A stretch of DNA of 31,669 bases from a virus, in the IMG/VR virus record IMGVR_UViG_3300025879_000062, positions 1 to 31,669 of that record; one strand, given 5' to 3'. How positions within the stretch are numbered: position 1 is the first letter of the stretch; each line of letters begins with the position of its first letter. The translations under genes and the position numbers were made by a program. Below are positions 119-31,669 of the stretch, one piece after another. Under the pieces are notes generated by a model. The model worked only from the letters and a program-made list of their open reading frames with translations, did not search any database and was not told the DNA's origin.

Positions 119-388
119 TCAGAAATTGATCCCAAGTCTCAGACTCATGAGCCTTTTAGCATCATAGATCTCCAGCTTATCAAAGAGCTTGATAATTTTT
201 CTGTAAGGCTTATGATCTCTCCAGTGATTCTCCTCGAAAGCAAAGAACTTAGTCCCAGTCAGCTCACAGATCGCACAGGCGTGTAGTGCAGCTGGTCCAT
301 AATTCTGAAAGCTCTGGATAAAGCGAGTGCTAGAGTACAGATCAAAAGTATCTCCAGCCTTATTGAATTTGATGACTACTCTTTCCAT
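119..388 (-). CDS. Hypothetical protein, 89 aa
   Basis: I do not recognise this protein. It is basic and mixed alpha/beta in appearance, with two nearby cysteines (residues 38 and 41), no signal peptide and no membrane segment. Its start codon shares one base with the stop of the upstream leftward gene (TAATG), which suggests translational coupling in a two-gene operon. The partial second copy at the right end differs from this one at two coding positions. Both fall in third positions and change AGA to AGG in arginine codons 63 and 84. That supports a real, selected coding region. The function is unknown. Confidence 0.8.
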   Translation of the reverse strand: MERVVIKFNKAGDTFDLYSSTRFIQSFQNYGPAALHACAICELTGTKFFAFEENHWRDHKPYRKIIKLFDKLEIYDAKRLMSLRLGINF

Positions 389-645
389 TACTTTACAAAT
401 TGGCGATAATTCATAGCCTTAGCATCCTCGATGTAGCGAGCAGATAGAGTCTTAGAGATCGCTCTAAGCAGCTCGATAAAATACGCCATATCCCAAGCCT
501 GTGACTCGATCTTATACTCAACTCTCTTAGAGATCTTAGCATGATGGATCTCCAGATCCTCAGTACTATAATCGTTAAACTGAGGCGCTAACCAGAGCAG
601 CCTCTTAACTTGTTCGTTAGTCATTTGTGGTGAATTTTGTGACAT
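388..645 (-). CDS. Hypothetical protein, 85 aa
   Basis: This is the first gene of the leftward pair. The protein appears mostly helical, with charged helices in the first half and a YFIELLRAISKTLSARY-like helix in the second. It has no motif I can assign. The one-base TAATG overlap with the next gene argues for co-translation. Its orientation is opposite to all structural genes around it, and it reads away from the intergenic region at 646-782. That is typical of an accessory or early-expressed phage gene, but the sequence shows no specific role. Confidence 0.75.
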   Translation of the reverse strand: MSQNSPQMTNEQVKRLLWLAPQFNDYSTEDLEIHHAKISKRVEYKIESQAWDMAYFIELLRAISKTLSARYIEDAKAMNYRQFVK

Positions 646-782
646 AATGTGATAATTTAATTAGAAATCATTTAGTTAATCGAGAGCAATATACAGAAAA
701 TCTACAAATACACAAAATATCTACAATATGTAAATGATAGAGATTTTTCTATACCTTTGGATAAATCCTTAAATCAAACACT
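646..782. promoter_or_regulatory. Divergent intergenic region with short repeats
   Basis: This AT-rich region separates the leftward pair from the rightward small-gene operon. It holds a rightward TAnnTTTG promoter element at 752-759. A weaker leftward candidate is TGTATTTG, read on the minus strand at 712-705. The heptamer TCTACAA occurs at 701-707 and 720-726, 19 bases apart, inside similar AAAAT-rich flanks. These repeats could be operator half-sites, but they are short and unproven. Confidence 0.5.
752..759 (+). promoter_or_regulatory. Bacteroidota-type promoter -7 element (TACCTTTG)
   Basis: TACCTTTG matches the TAnnTTTG consensus and ends 24 bases before the start codon at 783. It is the likely promoter for the rightward cassette 783-1729. 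Confidence 0.65.
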
Positions 783-920
783 ATGAACTTTGATCTATAC
801 TATGATCGCCTTTTATCTGAGCATCTTTCTGATGATCACAGATGTCCAGAATGTGACAAACCAGTAAAAAAAGAGGGAGAGTACTGCTCCAGTAACTGCT
901 TTGATGCCAGCATGAGATGA
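783..920 (+). CDS. Small zinc-ribbon protein, 45 aa
   Basis: This short gene encodes a 45-residue acidic protein with CPEC at residues 21-24 and CSSNC at 35-39. The two cysteine pairs, separated by about ten residues, are the pattern of a zinc ribbon or treble-clef knuckle. Its ATG lies 24 bases after a TAnnTTTG element. Its TGA overlaps the next gene's ATG by four bases (ATGA), which supports both reading frames. Such mini zinc fingers in phages often bind nucleic acid or host proteins, but the target here is unknown. Coding status is supported by the promoter spacing, the overlap and the ordered cysteine pattern. Confidence 0.75.
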   Translation: MNFDLYYDRLLSEHLSDDHRCPECDKPVKKEGEYCSSNCFDASMR

Positions 921-1168
921 GAGCTGCTGTATCATTTATCGCCAAAGAGACAGATTCTGTGGAGATCATGGAGGCTGTCCAGATGTACGACATAGTCTAT
1001 CTAGAGCATGATGATGTATACTATGCTTTATACATCTCTGGAGAGGAGGGTATCATTGAGAAGCGCTACAGGATCGAGGGTAGCTATTACACTCTTAATA
1101 CATACAAGGGTAGATTAGAGTTTGCATACGCCATCTACAGACTAATTAAAACGACTAAATATGAATAG
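917..1168 (+). CDS. Hypothetical protein, 83 aa
   Basis: I do not recognise this protein. It is rich in Tyr, Glu and Ile, with alternating patterns that suggest beta strands, and it ends in a helix. There is no signal peptide, membrane segment or metal motif. It overlaps the zinc-ribbon gene by four bases upstream and a small membrane-protein gene by eight bases downstream, so it is in the middle of a tightly packed operon. Context suggests an accessory role expressed with its neighbours. Confidence 0.75.
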   Translation: MRAAVSFIAKETDSVEIMEAVQMYDIVYLEHDDVYYALYISGEEGIIEKRYRIEGSYYTLNTYKGRLEFAYAIYRLIKTTKYE

Positions 1169-1298
1169 GATTCTACTACCTATAGTGATCGTGATCTTAC
1201 TTTATGTCTTTGATATGATCTGGATCACACTAGGCTGTATAGCAGCTGCTGTGATCACTAGTTACCTATACGATAAGTATCTAAAACACTGGCACTAG
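1161..1298 (+). CDS. Small membrane protein, 45 aa
   Basis: This 45-residue frame begins with MNRI and is hydrophobic from about residue 4 to 34, enough for one long or two short membrane segments. It ends in a polar tail rich in Tyr, Lys and His. It overlaps the preceding gene by eight bases and is followed by the nuclease gene after 32 bases. It was judged real from its operon position and its membrane-like composition. The function is unknown. Small inner-membrane proteins in such cassettes can act in exclusion or host takeover, which is only a possibility here. Confidence 0.6.
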   Translation: MNRILLPIVIVILLYVFDMIWITLGCIAAAVITSYLYDKYLKHWH

Positions 1299-1330
1299 AC
1301 AAGTAGCTGATTTTTAGTTACTTTAGTGGC

Positions 1331-1729
1331 ATGACCTCTAACCAATTTGGCTGTCTAGGCGAGCATAAGTTTGCTCTAGAGTGCATGTCCAGAGGATTTG
1401 ATGTGTCCATGCCTCTGAGACACTCTAGTCCCTATGATCTCATAGTGGATGTAGATCACCAGCTGCTTAAGATCCAAGTCAAGTCTCTTAGTCAAGAGAA
1501 AGAGAAAGGAAGGCATACGATCAAATATGTGATCGATTCAAAGAATAAAGATCGATACTATAACGCTGCTGATGTCGATTATTTTGCACTGTACTCTAGT
1601 TTTTTTGATGGTTTCTTTGTGATCCATTTCAGTGTAATAGGAGGTCAATCATCTGTCAGAGTCAGTCCAGACAATCAGTATGGGATCTACTTCAATGACT
1701 ACAGCTTTACTCAGCACACTACACTATAA
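1331..1729 (+). CDS. PD-(D/E)XK endonuclease-like protein, 132 aa
   Basis: The protein opens with a helix carrying GExxFALE (Glu11). Then come YDLIVD (Asp36) and a strand with IQVK (Gln49-Val-Lys51), in the order and spacing of the PD-(D/E)XK nuclease core (Glu, Asp, Q/E-x-Lys). This resembles the small PDDEXK_5-type endonucleases and archaeal resolvase-like enzymes. It is the last gene of the rightward cassette and is followed directly by a terminator. It may cut or process DNA during recombination or host genome attack. The Gln in place of the usual acidic residue is common in this subfamily. Activity and substrate cannot be read from the sequence. Confidence 0.75.
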   Translation: MTSNQFGCLGEHKFALECMSRGFDVSMPLRHSSPYDLIVDVDHQLLKIQVKSLSQEKEKGRHTIKYVIDSKNKDRYYNAADVDYFALYSSFFDGFFVIHFSVIGGQSSVRVSPDNQYGIYFNDYSFTQHTTL

Positions 1730-1757
1730 GCGCTATCAGAGGAGGTGGCGCTTTTTT
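1728..1757 (+). terminator. Intrinsic terminator closing the small-gene cassette
   Basis: AAGCGCTATC (1728-1737) and GGTGGCGCTT (1744-1753) form a 10-bp stem including two G-T pairs, with a six-base loop and a T run. It overlaps the nuclease stop codon and lies directly before the next promoter. Confidence 0.8.
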
Positions 1758-1759
1758 AG

Positions 1760-1767
1760 TACCTTTG
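1760..1767 (+). promoter_or_regulatory. Promoter -7 element (TACCTTTG) for head-tail operon
   Basis: This TAnnTTTG match lies between the cassette terminator and the gene starting at 1786, with 18 bases to the ATG. It would restart transcription for the connector and lysis genes, and it favours the downstream start over the ATG at 1765. Confidence 0.7.
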
Positions 1768-1785: not shown

Positions 1786-1998
1786 ATGAAAGTCAAAATC
1801 ATCAAACAGGTTTTTAATGGCCAGAGGTTACTCAGAGAGGGCGAGATCTTACAGATCATTGACAAAACAGCAAAGCAGTATATCCAGAAAGGTATCGCTG
1901 TCGAAGTCAAAGAAGCGCCAGCAAAGAAAGAGCAGAAACCAGCTGAAACCAAAGAAAATAAGACAGTATCTAAGAGAACAACTAAAAGCGCTAAATAA
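1786..1998 (+). CDS. Small head-associated protein, 70 aa
   Basis: The N-terminal 40 residues form a compact beta-rich motif (hydrophobic strand, then a LLREGEILQI-type turn, then a helix and KGIAVEV). Small proteins next to capsid genes in many phages look like this. The last 25 residues are a Lys/Glu/Ala/Thr-rich, probably disordered tail. An earlier in-frame ATG at 1765 lies inside the promoter element, so 1786 was chosen. The stop overlaps the next start (TAATG). It probably belongs to head completion, but the specific role is unknown. Confidence 0.75.
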   Translation: MKVKIIKQVFNGQRLLREGEILQIIDKTAKQYIQKGIAVEVKEAPAKKEQKPAETKENKTVSKRTTKSAK

Positions 1999-2513
1999 TG
2001 CCAGAGATGCTAATTAACTCAGTAGTAGGATCAGAGCCTTTGACTGAGACAGATTTTAAAAACTACATCAGGATCGACACTGATGCAGATGATGGTCTGC
2101 TAGAGAATATGATCGTGACTGCCAGAGAATGGTGTGAGATGTATATCAGCTCAGACATCGTGGCTAAGTCTCGTACCTACTATCAAGAGGAGGTACAGTA
2201 TGGAGAGGTCATTGATCTACCTTTTGGCGATGTATCATCTATCAGCTCAGTAACTGCTGAGGGTACTGCTGTAGAATACACTACAAAGGGTGTAGGATCT
2301 AACAGACTTATTTTAAACAGTCTACCAGCAAAGGATGTAAAGATCACCTATACTACTGCTGGATTAAATAATCAAGTGATCAAAAGCGCACTGAAAATGT
2401 TTGTCTCTACTCTGTATGATAATAGAGCATCATTTGTGACTGGTACTATCGTGACAGAAGTACCTCTAAATATCCAGAGCATCCTTGATCCATACAAACA
2501 GATGTACATCTAA
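1998..2513 (+). CDS. Head-tail connector (gp6-like adaptor)
   Basis: The 171-aa protein begins with the typical pattern of phage adaptor proteins: LTETDFKNYIRIDTDADDGLLENMIVTAREWCE, described here as an acidic loop followed by a helix that packs against the portal ring. A beta-rich middle and a C-terminal helical segment with IDPY-like ending (ILDPYKQMYI) complete the HK97 gp6/SPP1 gp15 type fold. It would form the ring under the portal. TAATG overlaps at both ends place it in a tightly coupled operon with the stopper gene. Confidence 0.8.
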   Translation: MPEMLINSVVGSEPLTETDFKNYIRIDTDADDGLLENMIVTAREWCEMYISSDIVAKSRTYYQEEVQYGEVIDLPFGDVSSISSVTAEGTAVEYTTKGVGSNRLILNSLPAKDVKITYTTAGLNNQVIKSALKMFVSTLYDNRASFVTGTIVTEVPLNIQSILDPYKQMYI

Positions 2514-5252: not shown

Positions 5253-6308
5253 ATGGCAAAGTACTTATCTCACATTGATCTTAATCAGAATCAGCTCCAA
5301 AATGCAGTAGTGCATCCTTTAGGATCAGCGCCATCTACTCCAGTAGAGGGACAGATCTATTTTAACTCTACAGCTGGAAACAAAAAACTATATGTCTATA
5401 ATGGCACAGCATGGACTGATCTAGCTGGTGTATACTCAATTCTAGAGGGAGATGGTATCTCAGTCTCTGGATCATCTGGAGAGGTAACTATTTCAGTAGA
5501 TGCCTCAGCTACCTATTTTGAATTTAGCTCTGGATCTTTAAGCATCAAGGCTGGATCAATAGGTGCAACTGAGTTAGATGCTACAGGTGTTACAGCTGAC
5601 TCTTATGGATCTGGATCTGCTATCCCTACTTTCACAGTAGATGCTAATGGGCGATTAACAGCTGCTGGAGAGGTTAGTATCTCATCTACTTTAGACATCG
5701 CTGCTGATGCTGGTACTGACGATGGAGTAGTACTAGGAACTGATACGCTTACTATTGCTGGAGGCACTAACATTAACACATCTGTCTCTGGAGATACGAT
5801 CACAGTCAATCTAGATGCTAGTCCTACTATTGGTGGAGATCTAGTGGTAGAAGGTAACTTAACTGTCTCTGGTACGACTACTACAGTCAATACTGAGACA
5901 ATCAACTTAGCTGATAATATCATCACGCTAAACTCGAATGAGACTGGAACGCCATCAGAGGATGCTGGTATCGAAGTAGAAAGAGGTACATCAACAAATG
6001 TAGCTGTGATCTGGGATGAGTCTGCTGATCGCTGGGCATTTACTAACGATGGATCTACCTATTTTAATATCCCAGTACCTAGTGAGTATGATACCTCTGC
6101 ATCCAGAGAACATGCTGCTACTATTGCTGATACAGCTACTGTGACTCATAACTTAGGATCTAGAGATGTAATCGTACAGCTTTTTGATACAGTTACCTAT
6201 GAGACAGTATTTGCTGATGTAGAGCGTAGCACTACTAACGCTGTAGATGTTACCTTTGCTAGTACTCCTACCAATAGTGTAAGAGTGCTGATCAGCAAAA
6301 TTGGATAA
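5253..6308 (+). CDS. Tail fibre protein, 351 aa
   Basis: The N-terminus holds a short module typical of fibre proteins of marine and Bacteroidota phages: PSTPVEGQIYFNSTAGNKKLYVYNG, followed by WTDLAG. The centre is a long Thr/Ser/Gly/Asp-rich beta-helical or triple-spiral-like stretch with little Lys or Arg. A second typical module (ETINLADNIITLNSNETGTPSEDAGIEVERG region, about residues 213-245) precedes a C-terminal beta domain of the TATVTHNLGSRDVIVQLFD type, which probably contributes to host contact. It lies sixteen bases before the S74 fibre gene. Confidence 0.78.
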   Translation: MAKYLSHIDLNQNQLQNAVVHPLGSAPSTPVEGQIYFNSTAGNKKLYVYNGTAWTDLAGVYSILEGDGISVSGSSGEVTISVDASATYFEFSSGSLSIKAGSIGATELDATGVTADSYGSGSAIPTFTVDANGRLTAAGEVSISSTLDIAADAGTDDGVVLGTDTLTIAGGTNINTSVSGDTITVNLDASPTIGGDLVVEGNLTVSGTTTTVNTETINLADNIITLNSNETGTPSEDAGIEVERGTSTNVAVIWDESADRWAFTNDGSTYFNIPVPSEYDTSASREHAATIADTATVTHNLGSRDVIVQLFDTVTYETVFADVERSTTNAVDVTFASTPTNSVRVLISKIG

Positions 6309-6324
6309 TATATAAAATAGCGAC

Positions 6325-9300
6325 ATGGCGAATAAGTTTCTCAATGGTATTGATACTACATCACTTAGTGTCAATAGCCAGTACTCTCTACCTACAAGTG
6401 ATGGATCTAATAAACAAGTACTAACTACTGATGGTAATGGTAATGTCACCTTTTCAGATGTAGATCTAGTAGGCGCACAGGCTCATTATGTTTATTATGA
6501 GGTCAAAAACTCTACTGGGGTAACTATCCCAAAAGGAACAGGAGTAATGGCTGTGGGTACAGATGGAAACTCAGGCCATATCTTAATATCGCCAATGGTA
6601 GCAGATGGCTCAATAGAGCCTCAATACTTTATAGGGATCACTGCTGATGCTATAGGTAATGGACAGACTGGGAATGTGATTCACTTTGGGATGCTTTCTA
6701 GTGTCAATACTACTGCATTTAATGATGGCGATGTATTATACTGTGATCCAGCTAATGATGGTGGATTTACTGTTACAGAGCCAGATGGTCCTAATCTTAA
6801 ATTAGCTGTAGCTTTTATAGTAAACTCTGCAACAAATGGTAAGATGTTTATCAGAGTACAGGGCAATGAGGGACTGCATCAGTTACATGATGTAAGCGCT
6901 AGTCCAGTATCTACTGCTGATGGAGATCTACTACAGTGGAACGCTACCTCTAAAGTCTGGGAAAACAAAACACTAGCTGATATAGCTGACTCACGCTATG
7001 TCAATGTATCTGGAGATACGATGTCTGGAAACTTAACAATTTCAGGATCTGGATATCGAGAATTAAAAGTAGATCAGACAGATAGCGCATCAGTTAGGTT
7101 AGGGGTATCATCAGGATCTACTGAGGCTTTTGTGTTTGCTGATAATACTGGAGCTGGTCATGTTACTGGGAACGCATCTATTAAGATGCTAATGTATGAT
7201 AGTAATTCTAACATAGTAGAATCTGGTAGATTTACTACTACTGGTTTAGATGTGACTGGTAATGTTTTAGCCAGCTCATTTATAAAAGATGGAGGCACAA
7301 GCTCTCAGTTTTTAAAAGCTGATGGATCTGTAGATTCAAACAGCTACATCACAGACATTACTACTCAGACAGATCCTAAGTATTTACGATCTGATACAAA
7401 TGACTTTTTTACTGGTAGACTAGCTAATATAAGTCTAAATCAAACTCCAGCCTATGGAGGTGGTGCTATTAATTTACAGCCAGCTACAGCTGGTGGATCT
7501 ACAGGAATTGTATTAAGATCTAAAGTTAATGATGGATCTGATTTTGGATTTATCTGGTGGTATGATGATAATGATCACTATAATACTTTAAACTCTACAG
7601 AAAATGGAGTTTTAGTAATAGGTATACAAAACGATGGAGGCGCTACCTCAATGGACTCTATCGCTATTGAATCAACTGGAGACATATATCTTAACGCTGG
7701 AGTAGCATCTGGAGATCAAGGCGCTGGAACATACGACACAGCTAGAGGTGATGTTTATGTAGGAGATGGGACTACTAGATATAAAGTATGGCACTCAGGA
7801 AACAGCTCTTTTACATCAAATGGTTTAGGCGCTAACTTCACTGATCCAGTGACTATTTATGATGCAAGTACTACAGAGAATCCTAGACTTTCAGTAGGTA
7901 GAGGAGACACTCAAAGGCTTAGCTTTAGTGTAGATGATGGTAATGCATATATAACTCATAGACAAGACGAAACTAATGCGCCTCATGCTCTTTATTTCAC
8001 TATAGATTCACCAACTACATCTGGAAAAGGATTCTACTGGCACTCTAGGTTGGCTGATGGTACTTCAGCTAATGAATATATGCATGTAGACTCTACTGGT
8101 TTAGATGTTAATGGCAGTGTAGTAGCTACATCTTTTAGTGGTAATGGAGCTAATGTTACTAATGTAAATGCTGATCTATGGGATGGTTATCAATTTGCTG
8201 ACTATTTAAATCAAGGCGTAAGAACATCAGATAGTCCATCATGGGGATCTATAAAAGTAACTAGTACAGCTGATGCTACTGGTATAGAGCTTAGAAATAG
8301 TAACGAGGTGATCTCTGGAGAGTCATGGTGTACTGCTTTTTATTCTATTAATGATAATGATGGATGGTTATTTGTAGGTAGAGATGCATCAGATAATCCT
8401 CATCCTATCTTTCACATAGGTGGATATAACAACGCTGGTAATGGTGGATATGATGCAAATGATTCTATTATCACGCTTTCTAGAAACAATGGTACTAAAG
8501 CTACTGGAGCTGGTGATTCTGATAATGGTTTATCTACCAGCACTGAGTTTATAAATATCGTTAAAAGGTCAGACTATACTTACTTTAAAGATAATCAAGG
8601 TGAGTATCGATTTAGTGGTCTTTTAAGAGCAGAGAATATGATCACTGTAAATGGTGATTATTTGATAAAAGAGTTAGGTACTCCATATTTTACTAATGGT
8701 GTAGCTAATCTAGCCTGTGATATACATTTTGGAAACAACTCTTTTTGGGGTTATATAGAGGTACATATCACTAGTACATACTCAAACCAGAATAGCGCTG
8801 GATCTTTAATTTATAGATACTCTGTAGGTACTAATCCAAATGGATCTATTTATGTAAACAGTAAAGAGTGTATTGCAGCTGATGGTACTATTACATCTAA
8901 TATAAATCTAGACAACTTTTACTGGGATTCTACTAATTCTACTTATGCGATACCTATATCTCATATAGTATCTACTGGTAATAGCTACTCTGTACTAATT
9001 AAAATGTTTACTCACAGCTCAGGAGCTTATGGAGCTGCTGATGACATAACAATAGGAGGTTTATATACTAAGACTGCTTTAAATGCGCCATATCAATACA
9101 ATAATGGGCCTTTGGGTGTAGGAGGTACATCTGGAGTAAAGCTTATAGGAGACAGTGGTAGCTTTGAGGTACAAAACGCATCTGGTACAGGTACATTCAA
9201 AGTCTACACTACTGGATATACTTCTATAGGTGGCGCTCATACAGCTGACTCTCCAGTACACATGAAGTTTTCTACTACTGGTGAATTACTACAGCTTTCT

Positions 9301-12293: not shown

Positions 12294-12322
12294 AAAGGTG
12301 GCCAGATGGCTGCCTTTTTTTA
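12294..12322 (+). terminator. Intrinsic terminator
   Basis: A 10-bp stem (12294-12303 with 12308-12317, including two G-T pairs) with an AGAT loop is followed by seven T residues. A second perfect hairpin, GTTTTCTA-T-TAGAAAAC, lies just upstream at 12272-12288. Together they separate the HExxH gene from the next transcription unit. Confidence 0.8.
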
Positions 12323-19538: not shown

Positions 19539-20300
19539 ATGTTAGCCAAAAAAGACACTAATAGTGAATATCACAGCCATCCAGCTGTAAGCTCCAGTAC
19601 TTTCAAGGAGATTTGGAAAAAGAGCGTTTATCACGCCATCAATAAGGAGTGGGACTCTACAGCATCTATGGATTTAGGGACAGCTGTACACACTATGATT
19701 CTAGAGCCAGAGGAGTTTAATGATCAGATCTATGTAATGCCTAAGATCGACAGGCGTACAAAAGAGGGAAAAGAGGAGTATCAAAAAGTACTCCTCAAAT
19801 CTCAAGGTAAGGTCATTATCACTCCAGAGCAAATGCAGATCGTTAAGAAAATTACTCACAATGCTTTAGGCGATGATAAAGTACTTGATCTACTAAAAGG
19901 CGAGAGAGAGATCTCTCACTACTCAGAGATCGATGGCGTACAGATCAAAGCTAGACCAGATGTGTATAATCCTGAGACTGGGATGATCGCAGACATCAAA
20001 ACATGTCAAGACAATAGTCCCAGAGCATTTAGATCAGATGTTAAGAAGTTTGCCTATCATTTACAGGCTGTTTTCTACTGTAGAGTGCTGGGCCTAGATC
20101 CTTTAAACTGGAGATTTATTGCAGTGGAAACAAAACATCCCTATACTTGCCAAGTGTATGCACTTAATGATGAGCAGATCGATGATGGAGAGATCGCATT
20201 TGAGAGAGTTTTTAAAGACTGGAAGTTTTATCTAGAGACAGGTATCGCTGTAGGCTATAATGGCTATGATACTACTCCAGATGGAGCTATAATTTTATAA
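19539..20300 (+). CDS. RecE/Cas4-like PD-(D/E)XK exonuclease, 253 aa
   Basis: Conserved parts appear in order: MDLGTAVHTMILEP with His51, then KARPDVY with Asp141, ADIKT with Asp152 and Lys154, and HLQAVFYCRVLG carrying the QxxxY signature (Gln176, Tyr180) of RecB-family nucleases. This matches the phage PDDEXK exonucleases related to RecE (the PF12684 type), which resect double-stranded ends for annealing-driven recombination. The length of 253 is normal. With the neighbouring annealing and SSB-like proteins it forms a recombination set like lambda Red. Confidence 0.82.
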   Translation: MLAKKDTNSEYHSHPAVSSSTFKEIWKKSVYHAINKEWDSTASMDLGTAVHTMILEPEEFNDQIYVMPKIDRRTKEGKEEYQKVLLKSQGKVIITPEQMQIVKKITHNALGDDKVLDLLKGEREISHYSEIDGVQIKARPDVYNPETGMIADIKTCQDNSPRAFRSDVKKFAYHLQAVFYCRVLGLDPLNWRFIAVETKHPYTCQVYALNDEQIDDGEIAFERVFKDWKFYLETGIAVGYNGYDTTPDGAIIL

Positions 20301-20303
20301 GGT

Positions 20304-20675
20304 ATGGCTGGAGGTTTCCATAAGTATTTAAGCAAAGAGGACAAGCTACAGAGAGAGGTGATAGTCTATCTACAGCTCCAATATCCTCAAGCGCTCGTAA
20401 TTCATGTAGCGAACGAGGGAAAGCGTACTCCTTTCGAGCGTTTTAAATTTAAGTACTTAGGAGGCCTCTCTGGCGTACCAGATATACTGATATTTAATCC
20501 AAACAATAAATTTCATGGCCTTGCCATTGAGCTAAAAGTAGGCTACAATAAACCAACTCAGAATCAAAAGGAGATACTACAGGATCTCTCTGATCTAGGA
20601 TGGTTTGCTGTCTGGCTTAACTCTTTTGATAAAGCACAGGATCTAATCGATAAATACTTTAACAATGAGCTATAG
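20304..20675 (+). CDS. VRR-NUC domain nuclease, 123 aa
   Basis: The sequence follows the VRR-NUC pattern: an N-terminal helix with LQREVIVYLQ (Glu18), HVANEGKR, GGLSGVPDILIF with Asp60, GLAIELKVG with Glu76 and Lys78, and TQNQKEILQDL after the core. Such standalone phage VRR-NUC enzymes are structure-selective nucleases, often suggested to resolve branched DNA. The gene lies three bases after the exonuclease gene and overlaps the next by eleven bases, all within the replication operon. Confidence 0.85.
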   Translation: MAGGFHKYLSKEDKLQREVIVYLQLQYPQALVIHVANEGKRTPFERFKFKYLGGLSGVPDILIFNPNNKFHGLAIELKVGYNKPTQNQKEILQDLSDLGWFAVWLNSFDKAQDLIDKYFNNEL

Positions 20676-30276: not shown

Positions 30277-31470
30277 GTGGAAAATTTAAACGAAATCAAA
30301 AGCCAAATCTCTGAGGTTTTAGATGCTAAAATCGAGAAAGCATTTAACCAAGCTCAAGAGAACGCAAAAGGACAGGTAGATTCTGTACTTAAAGGCGAAA
30401 TCAAAAATCTTACTGATCAAGTAGTAGGAATGAACGAAAGACTAGATCAAGCTGAGGTAGCTGCTAAAAAATCTGCTGCTGGATCTGAGCCTAAGTCTTT
30501 CAAAGGATCTTTACTAAAAGCTCTTAAAGAGGGTGCAGTAGAGGGACTAGTTAAAGGTGACTCTAACGCTGCTCGTTTCGAGATCAAAGCTGGAGACATG
30601 ACTATGGCTAACTCTTACACTGGAGTAGTAGCTGCTGAGCAAGTGATCTCAGACATCAAGTTTGATCCTACTCGTAGAGTACATATTCGCCAGTTAATCC
30701 CTAATGGATCTACTGATGCTCAAACTATTCGCTATCCAAAAGAGTCTGCATACGATGATGGAGCTGCTGCTAAAGCTCAAGGTGCTACTCTAGGACAGTC
30801 TGATTTTGACATCGCTGCTAGCTCTGTAAACATGGAGAAAATAGGTACATTTATGAGAATCACTGAGGAGATGTTAAATGATACTCCACAGTTATTATCT
30901 TACCTATCAGCTCGTGTACCAGAGAAGATTTTATCTCTAGAGGATGCTCAGATCTTAAATGGTGATGGTACATCTCCAAACTTAGATGGTCTTTTCACTG
31001 ATGGATCTGCTTTCGCTGCTGGTGGTTTCGCTGCTGGTATCGAGTCTGCTAACGAGTACGATGTACTAGTAGTAGCTCTAAACCAATTAGCACTAGCTAA
31101 CTACAGCGCTGATACTATCCTAGTGAATCCTACAGATCTACACAAGATCGCTCTACTTAAGTCTACTGCTAATGAGTACCTAAGACAGCAAATCTACTCA
31201 GGTCTACAGCCTAACATCATGGGCGTGCCTGTAACTGCTAGCACTGCTGTTGCTGCTGGATCTTTCCTAGTAGGTAACTTAGCTGTAGCTACTCAGCTAT
31301 GGATTCGTGAGAATTTAGCTGTAGAGTTTTCTCGTGAGGATTCTACTAACTTTAGAGATGGATTTGTAACTGTGAAAGCTAGCGAGCGTGTAGCACTTAC
31401 TAACTATCTACCTAACGCTATCGTACAGGGATCTTTTGCAACTGCTAAAGCTGCTTTAGAGACTGCTTAA
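30277..31470 (+). CDS. Major capsid protein (HK97 fold)
   Basis: The start is a GTG two bases after the protease stop; no better ATG is in frame. Residues 1-80 are a charged coiled-coil (ENLNEIKSQISEVLDAKIEKAF and on), the delta or scaffold part removed by the protease. Then the HK97-fold body begins, with MTMANSYTGVVAAEQVISDIKF, RRVHIRQLIPNGSTDAQTIRYPKE, ITEEMLNDTPQLLSYL and LEDAQILNGDGTSPNLDGLF as landmarks. The C-terminus has VEFSREDSTNFRDGFVTVKASERVALTNYLP, a typical ending. Codons are more uniform, as expected for an abundant protein. A two-way terminator follows. Confidence 0.93.
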   Translation: MENLNEIKSQISEVLDAKIEKAFNQAQENAKGQVDSVLKGEIKNLTDQVVGMNERLDQAEVAAKKSAAGSEPKSFKGSLLKALKEGAVEGLVKGDSNAARFEIKAGDMTMANSYTGVVAAEQVISDIKFDPTRRVHIRQLIPNGSTDAQTIRYPKESAYDDGAAAKAQGATLGQSDFDIAASSVNMEKIGTFMRITEEMLNDTPQLLSYLSARVPEKILSLEDAQILNGDGTSPNLDGLFTDGSAFAAGGFAAGIESANEYDVLVVALNQLALANYSADTILVNPTDLHKIALLKSTANEYLRQQIYSGLQPNIMGVPVTASTAVAAGSFLVGNLAVATQLWIRENLAVEFSREDSTNFRDGFVTVKASERVALTNYLPNAIVQGSFATAKAALETA

Positions 31471-31491
31471 TACTTATATAGCTAAAACAAG

Positions 31492-31520
31492 AAAGAGGCC
31501 TCTGTAGGGCCTCTTTTTTA
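31492..31520. terminator. Two-way terminator after major capsid gene (right copy)
   Basis: The same perfect 9-bp stem as at 74-98 occurs here (31492-31500 with 31508-31516), followed by a T run. No substitution falls in the stem or loop. Confidence 0.85.
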
Positions 31521-31536
31521 TTTGTGGTAGTTTGGA

Positions 31537-31669
31537 TCAGAAATTGATCCCAAGCCTCAGACTCATGAGCCTTTTAGCATCATAGATCTCCAGCTTATCA
31601 AAGAGCTTGATAATTTTCCTGTAAGGCTTATGATCTCTCCAGTGATTCTCCTCGAAAGCAAAGAACTTA
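31537..31669 (-). CDS. Hypothetical protein, C-terminal 44 residues (partial, right copy)
   Basis: This is the end of the leftward 89-aa gene, cut by the window edge. Its protein sequence is the same as that of the left copy over the shared part; two codons differ only in the third base (AGA versus AGG arginine). Confidence 0.85.
   Translation of the reverse strand, partial: KFFAFEENHWRDHKPYRKIIKLFDKLEIYDAKRLMSLRLGINF

Follow-up and report, generated by a model that had tools for sequence, protein, structure and literature searches.

An I-Ssp6803I-type endonuclease gene fixed between the capsid and connector genes of an uncultured phage group, a candidate domesticated homing nuclease

Genes and signals between the capsid and connector genes

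The DNA analysed here (the window) is the 31,669-base IMG/VR record of a marine bacterial virus. Positions 1-251 match positions 31419-31669 at 98.8%, a 251-base overlap of the two record ends with three mismatches, so the record covers a genome of roughly 31.4 kb at least once. This imperfect overlap may come from circular permutation or from a mixture of strains in the assembly. The right end of the record carries the portal, head morphogenesis, protease and capsid genes, and because the ends overlap the capsid gene lies directly upstream of position 1. Six open reading frames occupy positions 119-1729, bounded by a two-way terminator and an intrinsic terminator, with the major capsid gene upstream in circular order and the head-tail adaptor gene downstream. 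The earlier note had described these six small genes, terminators at both sides and a placement between capsid and connector genes, and all three were recovered, as listed below.

30277 to 31470, plus strand: major capsid protein of HK97 type, upstream of the cassette in circular order (PHROG_10 major head protein, 4e-54)
73 to 99, both strands: predicted two-way intrinsic terminator 3' of the capsid gene, equivalent in 37 of 49 relatives
119 to 388, minus strand: leftward gene 1, 89 aa, no known family; dN/dS 0.02 against relatives L003, L005 and L015
388 to 645, minus strand: leftward gene 2, 85 aa, no known family; dN/dS 0.16-0.41
646 to 782, no strand: divergent intergenic region holding the -7 element at 752-759 (sequence comparison, promoter scan)
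752 to 759, plus strand: putative -7 element TACCTTTG ahead of the first rightward gene at 783 (TAnnTTTG motif)
783 to 920, plus strand: mini zinc ribbon, 45 aa (CPEC...CSSNC, tail FDASMR), with weak zinc-finger matches
917 to 1168, plus strand: alpha/beta protein, 83 aa, clade-specific, with an ATGA overlap with the zinc-ribbon gene; dN/dS 0.08-0.19, model pLDDT 85
1161 to 1298, plus strand: single-pass membrane protein of 45 aa; L003 encodes the same protein sequence despite 8 third-position changes
1331 to 1729, plus strand: PD-(D/E)XK endonuclease of I-Ssp6803I type, 132 aa (PF11645; PHROG_5018; 2OST match)
1729 to 1752, plus strand: predicted intrinsic terminator 3' of the nuclease gene, equivalent in 44 of 49 relatives
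1760 to 1767, plus strand: putative -7 element TACCTTTG restarting transcription for the connector genes (TAnnTTTG motif)
1786 to 1998, plus strand: conserved small protein (MKVKIIKQVF...) whose gene opens the connector operon, between nuclease and adaptor, missing from the earlier list (cluster of 46 loci)
1998 to 2513, plus strand: head-tail adaptor (PHROG_442, 1e-18)
20304 to 20675, plus strand: VRR-Nuc protein, likely a junction resolvase (PF08774, 9.7e-7)

The nucleotide search of isolate phages returned no relative of this region, and the best isolate matches of the capsid protein were HK97-like with only about 32% identity, which leaves no cultured relative for comparison. A scan of genomes with the capsid alignment gave no prophage. 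The relatives compared here are metagenomic contigs throughout, many of them fragmentary.

The terminators 3' of the capsid gene and 3' of the nuclease gene, with equivalents in 37/49 and 44/49 loci, compare with 0.1 and 0.0 loci expected from 20 shuffles per locus, the loci being related and not independent of each other. The promoter consensus of Bacteroidota is TTTG/TANNTTTG, and TAnnTTTG is its known -7 element (PMC6847099). A TAnnTTTG element and an open ATG frame (median 24 bp downstream) were found 3' of the nuclease in all 51 loci compared, and within the record the motif lies 12-31 bp upstream of 10 of the 41 rightward gene starts, where 1.0 is expected (starts at 783, 1786, 4556, 11232, 13035, 14241, 24106, 24387, 25924 and 29582). 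These elements suggest a genome with about ten such promoters and a host among the Bacteroidota. No site within the record combined a TTG -33 element with a TAnnTTTG -7 element at the tested spacing, so the promoters were called from the -7 element; the sigma-70 style scan (14 found against 10.8 expected) is uninformative for a genome with promoters of the Bacteroidota type. The shared intergenic region had been credited with its own promoter, which holds for the rightward genes, with the -7 element at 752-759; for the leftward pair, inspection of the sequence gave near-matches only and no promoter equally clear. Further strong terminators were predicted at 12294, 13457 and 24340, the last of them followed by a promoter element and then by the small terminase gene. 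Terminator/promoter junctions are thus a general style of this phage genome, and insulation, which the earlier note had counted as part of an architecture typical of accessory loci, does not by itself identify a moron.

Turnover of the genes around the nuclease

All six cassette genes have dN/dS of 0-0.41 in relatives with one exception, the zinc ribbon, whose value of 0.81 against the closest relative is noisy since it comes from 45 codons with few changes; the comparisons indicate that all six genes are under purifying selection. The possibility that the two leftward genes are chance reading frames was rejected on their dN/dS. The product of 119-388 had no match in Pfam, PHROGs, PADLOC or NCBIfam, and this gene was found in only five contigs and its neighbour at 388-645 in only four, all belonging to the record's own clade. 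Relatives L003, L005 and L015 carry about 290 bp of extra DNA in the divergent region, including a third leftward gene of 82 aa that is absent from the record, and on inspection the sequence upstream of 388-645 in the record seems to correspond to the region preceding the 82-aa gene in these relatives, the arrangement that a deletion would produce.

On the rightward side, the membrane gene at 1161-1298 is absent from L005 and L015, and the model of the 83-aa protein had no significant match in a fold search (best E value 0.017). Judged by their distribution, the leftward genes at 119-645 and the genes at 917-1168 and 1161-1298, which are confined to the clade or lost within it, are the accessory part of the cassette. 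Zinc-ribbon relatives were present in 16 clustered loci, and the same kind of zinc ribbon was seen in many other loci, frequently as the third gene of a series that starts with a membrane protein and a small helical protein and ends with the nuclease. As compared to L005, the genes from 388 to 1168 have dS of 0.97-2.47 and the head and tail genes 0.21-0.74, so that this stretch has been exchanged or is older.

Family and fold of the nuclease

The PD-(D/E)XK nuclease-like protein of the earlier note was confirmed by its match to Pfam PF11645 (PDDEXK_5; 5.5e-16, 59.3 bits against a cut-off of 26.1), and it also matched PHROG_5018 (3e-24). The sole good match in the PDB sequence search was the homing endonuclease I-Ssp6803I (2OST, 4e-5), and the AlphaFold2 model (pLDDT 88) matched the same enzyme in Foldseek (7e-9) and by structural superposition (Z 15.9, 2.6 A over 127 residues). 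Archaeal Hjc resolvase (Z 10.8) and SPARDA (Z 10.6; Foldseek 4e-6 to its DREN domain) both scored below it. The predicted catalytic residues E11, D36, Q49 and K51 were kept in 116 of 117 nuclease sequences, and the remaining one has an alignment gap at its start. By sequence, modelled fold and active-site residues, the protein is assigned to the PDDEXK_5 family and the I-Ssp6803I type, and specificity for a duplex site would be expected by analogy with that family.

I-Ssp6803I shares with the phage nuclease its fold, active-site residues and length, and its gene sits in a group I intron of tRNA-fMet (PMC1995217). Unlike this intron-encoded enzyme, the phage nuclease is free-standing and fixed in all relatives, and no match to a group I intron or any other Rfam family was found in the record. 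The SPARDA DREN domain has the PD-(D/E)XK fold and D...QxK active site (D41, Q60, K62) in common with the phage nuclease, and it forms a tetramer similar to the one of I-Ssp6803I (PMC12205087); DREN belongs, as one domain, to a defence protein associated with Argonaute, whereas the phage nuclease is a stand-alone protein of 132 aa. Among the PADLOC models, which describe defence proteins, the nuclease matched a homing endonuclease model (7e-7), and nothing convincing was obtained for the other cassette proteins.

Searches of isolate phages with the nuclease gave distant homologues only. In two contigs, nuclease homologues adjoin lysis genes instead of capsid genes (L129, 2067-2429; L150, 4986-5378), so over longer times the nuclease family does change its place. 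In a third contig (L011), a distant homologue at 5998-6366 is followed by a CxxC...CSxKC zinc-finger gene at 6464-6814, echoing the pair of zinc ribbon and nuclease. The family itself is not new, and public structure sets already label members from phages as PD-(D/E)XK proteins; a few open-licence papers were found that name PF11645 or PDDEXK_5 in connection with phages, and their abstracts make no mention of a fixed place between the capsid and adaptor genes.

Fixation of the nuclease and its possible roles

The nuclease gene was found between the capsid and adaptor genes in 51 of 51 non-identical spanning loci of a first set, chosen by capsid relatedness and blind to the nuclease, to which a few near relatives were added via other cassette proteins; the only miss scored by the script was the record itself, owing to its circular order. 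A second set with more distant capsids gave 63 of 63, of which 62 were called by script and the last (L215) had its nuclease hidden by an overlong adaptor frame. All 114 spanning loci were thus occupied, with capsid identity down to 48%, although the query of the second set was a locus first found via the nuclease and some contigs are common to both sets, so that the two counts are not independent. No empty site or degenerate nuclease copy was seen among the 114 loci, no locus had capsid and adaptor genes directly adjacent, and in the first set capsid and nuclease were separated by 601 bp or more. Exactly one PF11645 match was present in each of 24 long related genomes. The distances of the nuclease track those of the capsid (r=0.74) as well as the distances of the adaptor do (r=0.72), which indicates that it is inherited together with its neighbours, though it changes faster (mean distances of 0.76 for the nuclease, 0.55 for the adaptor and 0.39 for the capsid). 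Two contigs carry two capsid-nuclease loci each (L123/L145 and L207/L211); they either exceed a single turn of the genome or combine two phages.

Lambdoid morons have their own promoter and terminator between structural genes and are absent from close relatives. The cassette resembles them in its promoter and terminators, but its nuclease is present in close relatives. The earlier note had taken the whole cassette for an accessory (moron) locus of anti-defence, exclusion or takeover genes, in which the nuclease would be one passenger. Its view of the genes as non-structural is supported, and the turnover around the nuclease, together with the membrane and zinc-ribbon proteins and the separate transcription signals, agrees with the accessory reading for part of the cassette. 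On the other hand, the note had expected related genomes in which the cassette is variable or absent while capsid and connector genes remain adjacent, which was seen only for individual clade-specific genes, and it had named conservation at this site in all relatives, together with late expression and virion location, as evidence against its proposal; the nuclease occupies the site in every spanning locus of both sets and by the first of these marks is no moron. In addition, searches of Pfam, PHROGs, PADLOC and NCBIfam linked none of the cassette proteins to a known anti-defence family, and similar terminator/promoter junctions occur elsewhere in the genome. We regard a moron cassette with the nuclease as passenger as quite improbable.

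Free-standing homing-type phage nucleases are usually read as optional selfish genes, and homing genes normally come and go. An active selfish homing endonuclease at this locus would cut relatives that lack the gene and co-convert the flanks, which would give matching trees for nuclease and neighbours. The family match to homing enzymes, the free-standing homologues beside lysis genes in other contigs and the raised dS against L005 in 388-1168 between conserved flanks, as at an exchange hot spot, are all in line with such a gene. However, the patchy distribution of a homing gene is not what was found: occupation is complete down to 48% capsid identity, and each of the 24 long genomes carries a single copy. 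Ongoing selfish homing is therefore considered unlikely.

A further explanation is that the nuclease serves a core task on the DNA of the phage itself, either the resolution of branched DNA or trimming or nicking during packaging or maturation. It would account for a gene that is never lost in 114 loci and that adjoins the head genes, the fold is also near that of archaeal Hjc, and in HK97 an HNH protein works together with terminase at cos (PMC10448857). Resolution of branched DNA seems to be provided for in another way, because a match to VRR-Nuc, a family with cleavage activity on four-way junctions (PMC4103454), was found in all 24 related long genomes, in 21 of them above the curated cut-off; a junction-resolvase role for the PDDEXK_5 nuclease therefore looks unnecessary. 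RusA was absent from the 24 genomes. In the record the VRR-Nuc gene follows that of a DUF3799 PD-(D/E)XK protein (19539-20300), and genes for an HTH protein and a T7-like primase-helicase adjoin them. The closest match of the nuclease is also a sequence-specific homing enzyme and not Hjc, its gene is insulated from the structural transcripts, and the terminase gene lies about 7 kb away. Although a core job on phage DNA is on the whole rather unlikely in our estimate, its packaging or maturation form is the strongest remaining rival, because a weapon used in competition should sometimes be lost.

The reading that we tentatively prefer, at somewhat less than even confidence, is that the locus is no typical moron and is instead a conserved, separately transcribed unit of a domesticated homing-type endonuclease that probably cuts non-self DNA. 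The core of the unit would be a sequence-specific double-strand DNA endonuclease with the fold, family membership and active site of I-Ssp6803I. Domestication by the phage group would fit a gene that is constant, single-copy and co-inherited with the capsid gene, and the promoter and terminator signals predict that the nuclease is expressed from its own unit, separated from the capsid and connector transcripts. The enzyme is probably tetrameric, like I-Ssp6803I and SPARDA DREN, and may cut pseudo-palindromic sites in foreign DNA, which could come from a co-infecting satellite or related phage, or from the host chromosome. The zinc ribbon encoded upstream may help DNA binding or regulation, and the leftward genes, the 83-aa protein and the membrane protein, whose turnover is observed, may be quickly changing passengers or allele-specific partners.

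There is precedent for a homing nuclease turned on satellites in Odn of ICP1 (PMC10448857). Odn and the HNH protein next to the HK97 terminase are similar to the nuclease described here in being homing-type nucleases used by a phage (PMC10448857), but they have other nuclease folds and other genome positions, and Odn-like genes are variable whereas this nuclease is invariant. Gp5 of ICP1, a comparable case, is frameshifted in over half of the isolates (PMC10448857). Against the reading as a weapon, a gene that is never lost is unusual for competition and a core DNA-processing role fits as well, and the site beside the head genes could reflect a role in maturation.

Our results show a homing-type nuclease that is never missing in more than 100 loci of a large phage group, with its active site kept and a transcription boundary conserved on each side. 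An insulated block amid head genes need not be a moron, and this locus is a good test of how phages make selfish nucleases into fixed functions. As a speculation to which we give a low probability, this uncultured phage group may depend on a domesticated homing endonuclease in its head gene cluster, as a built-in weapon or DNA-processing enzyme under a switch of its own, with fast-evolving tiny partners that tune its specificity or control.
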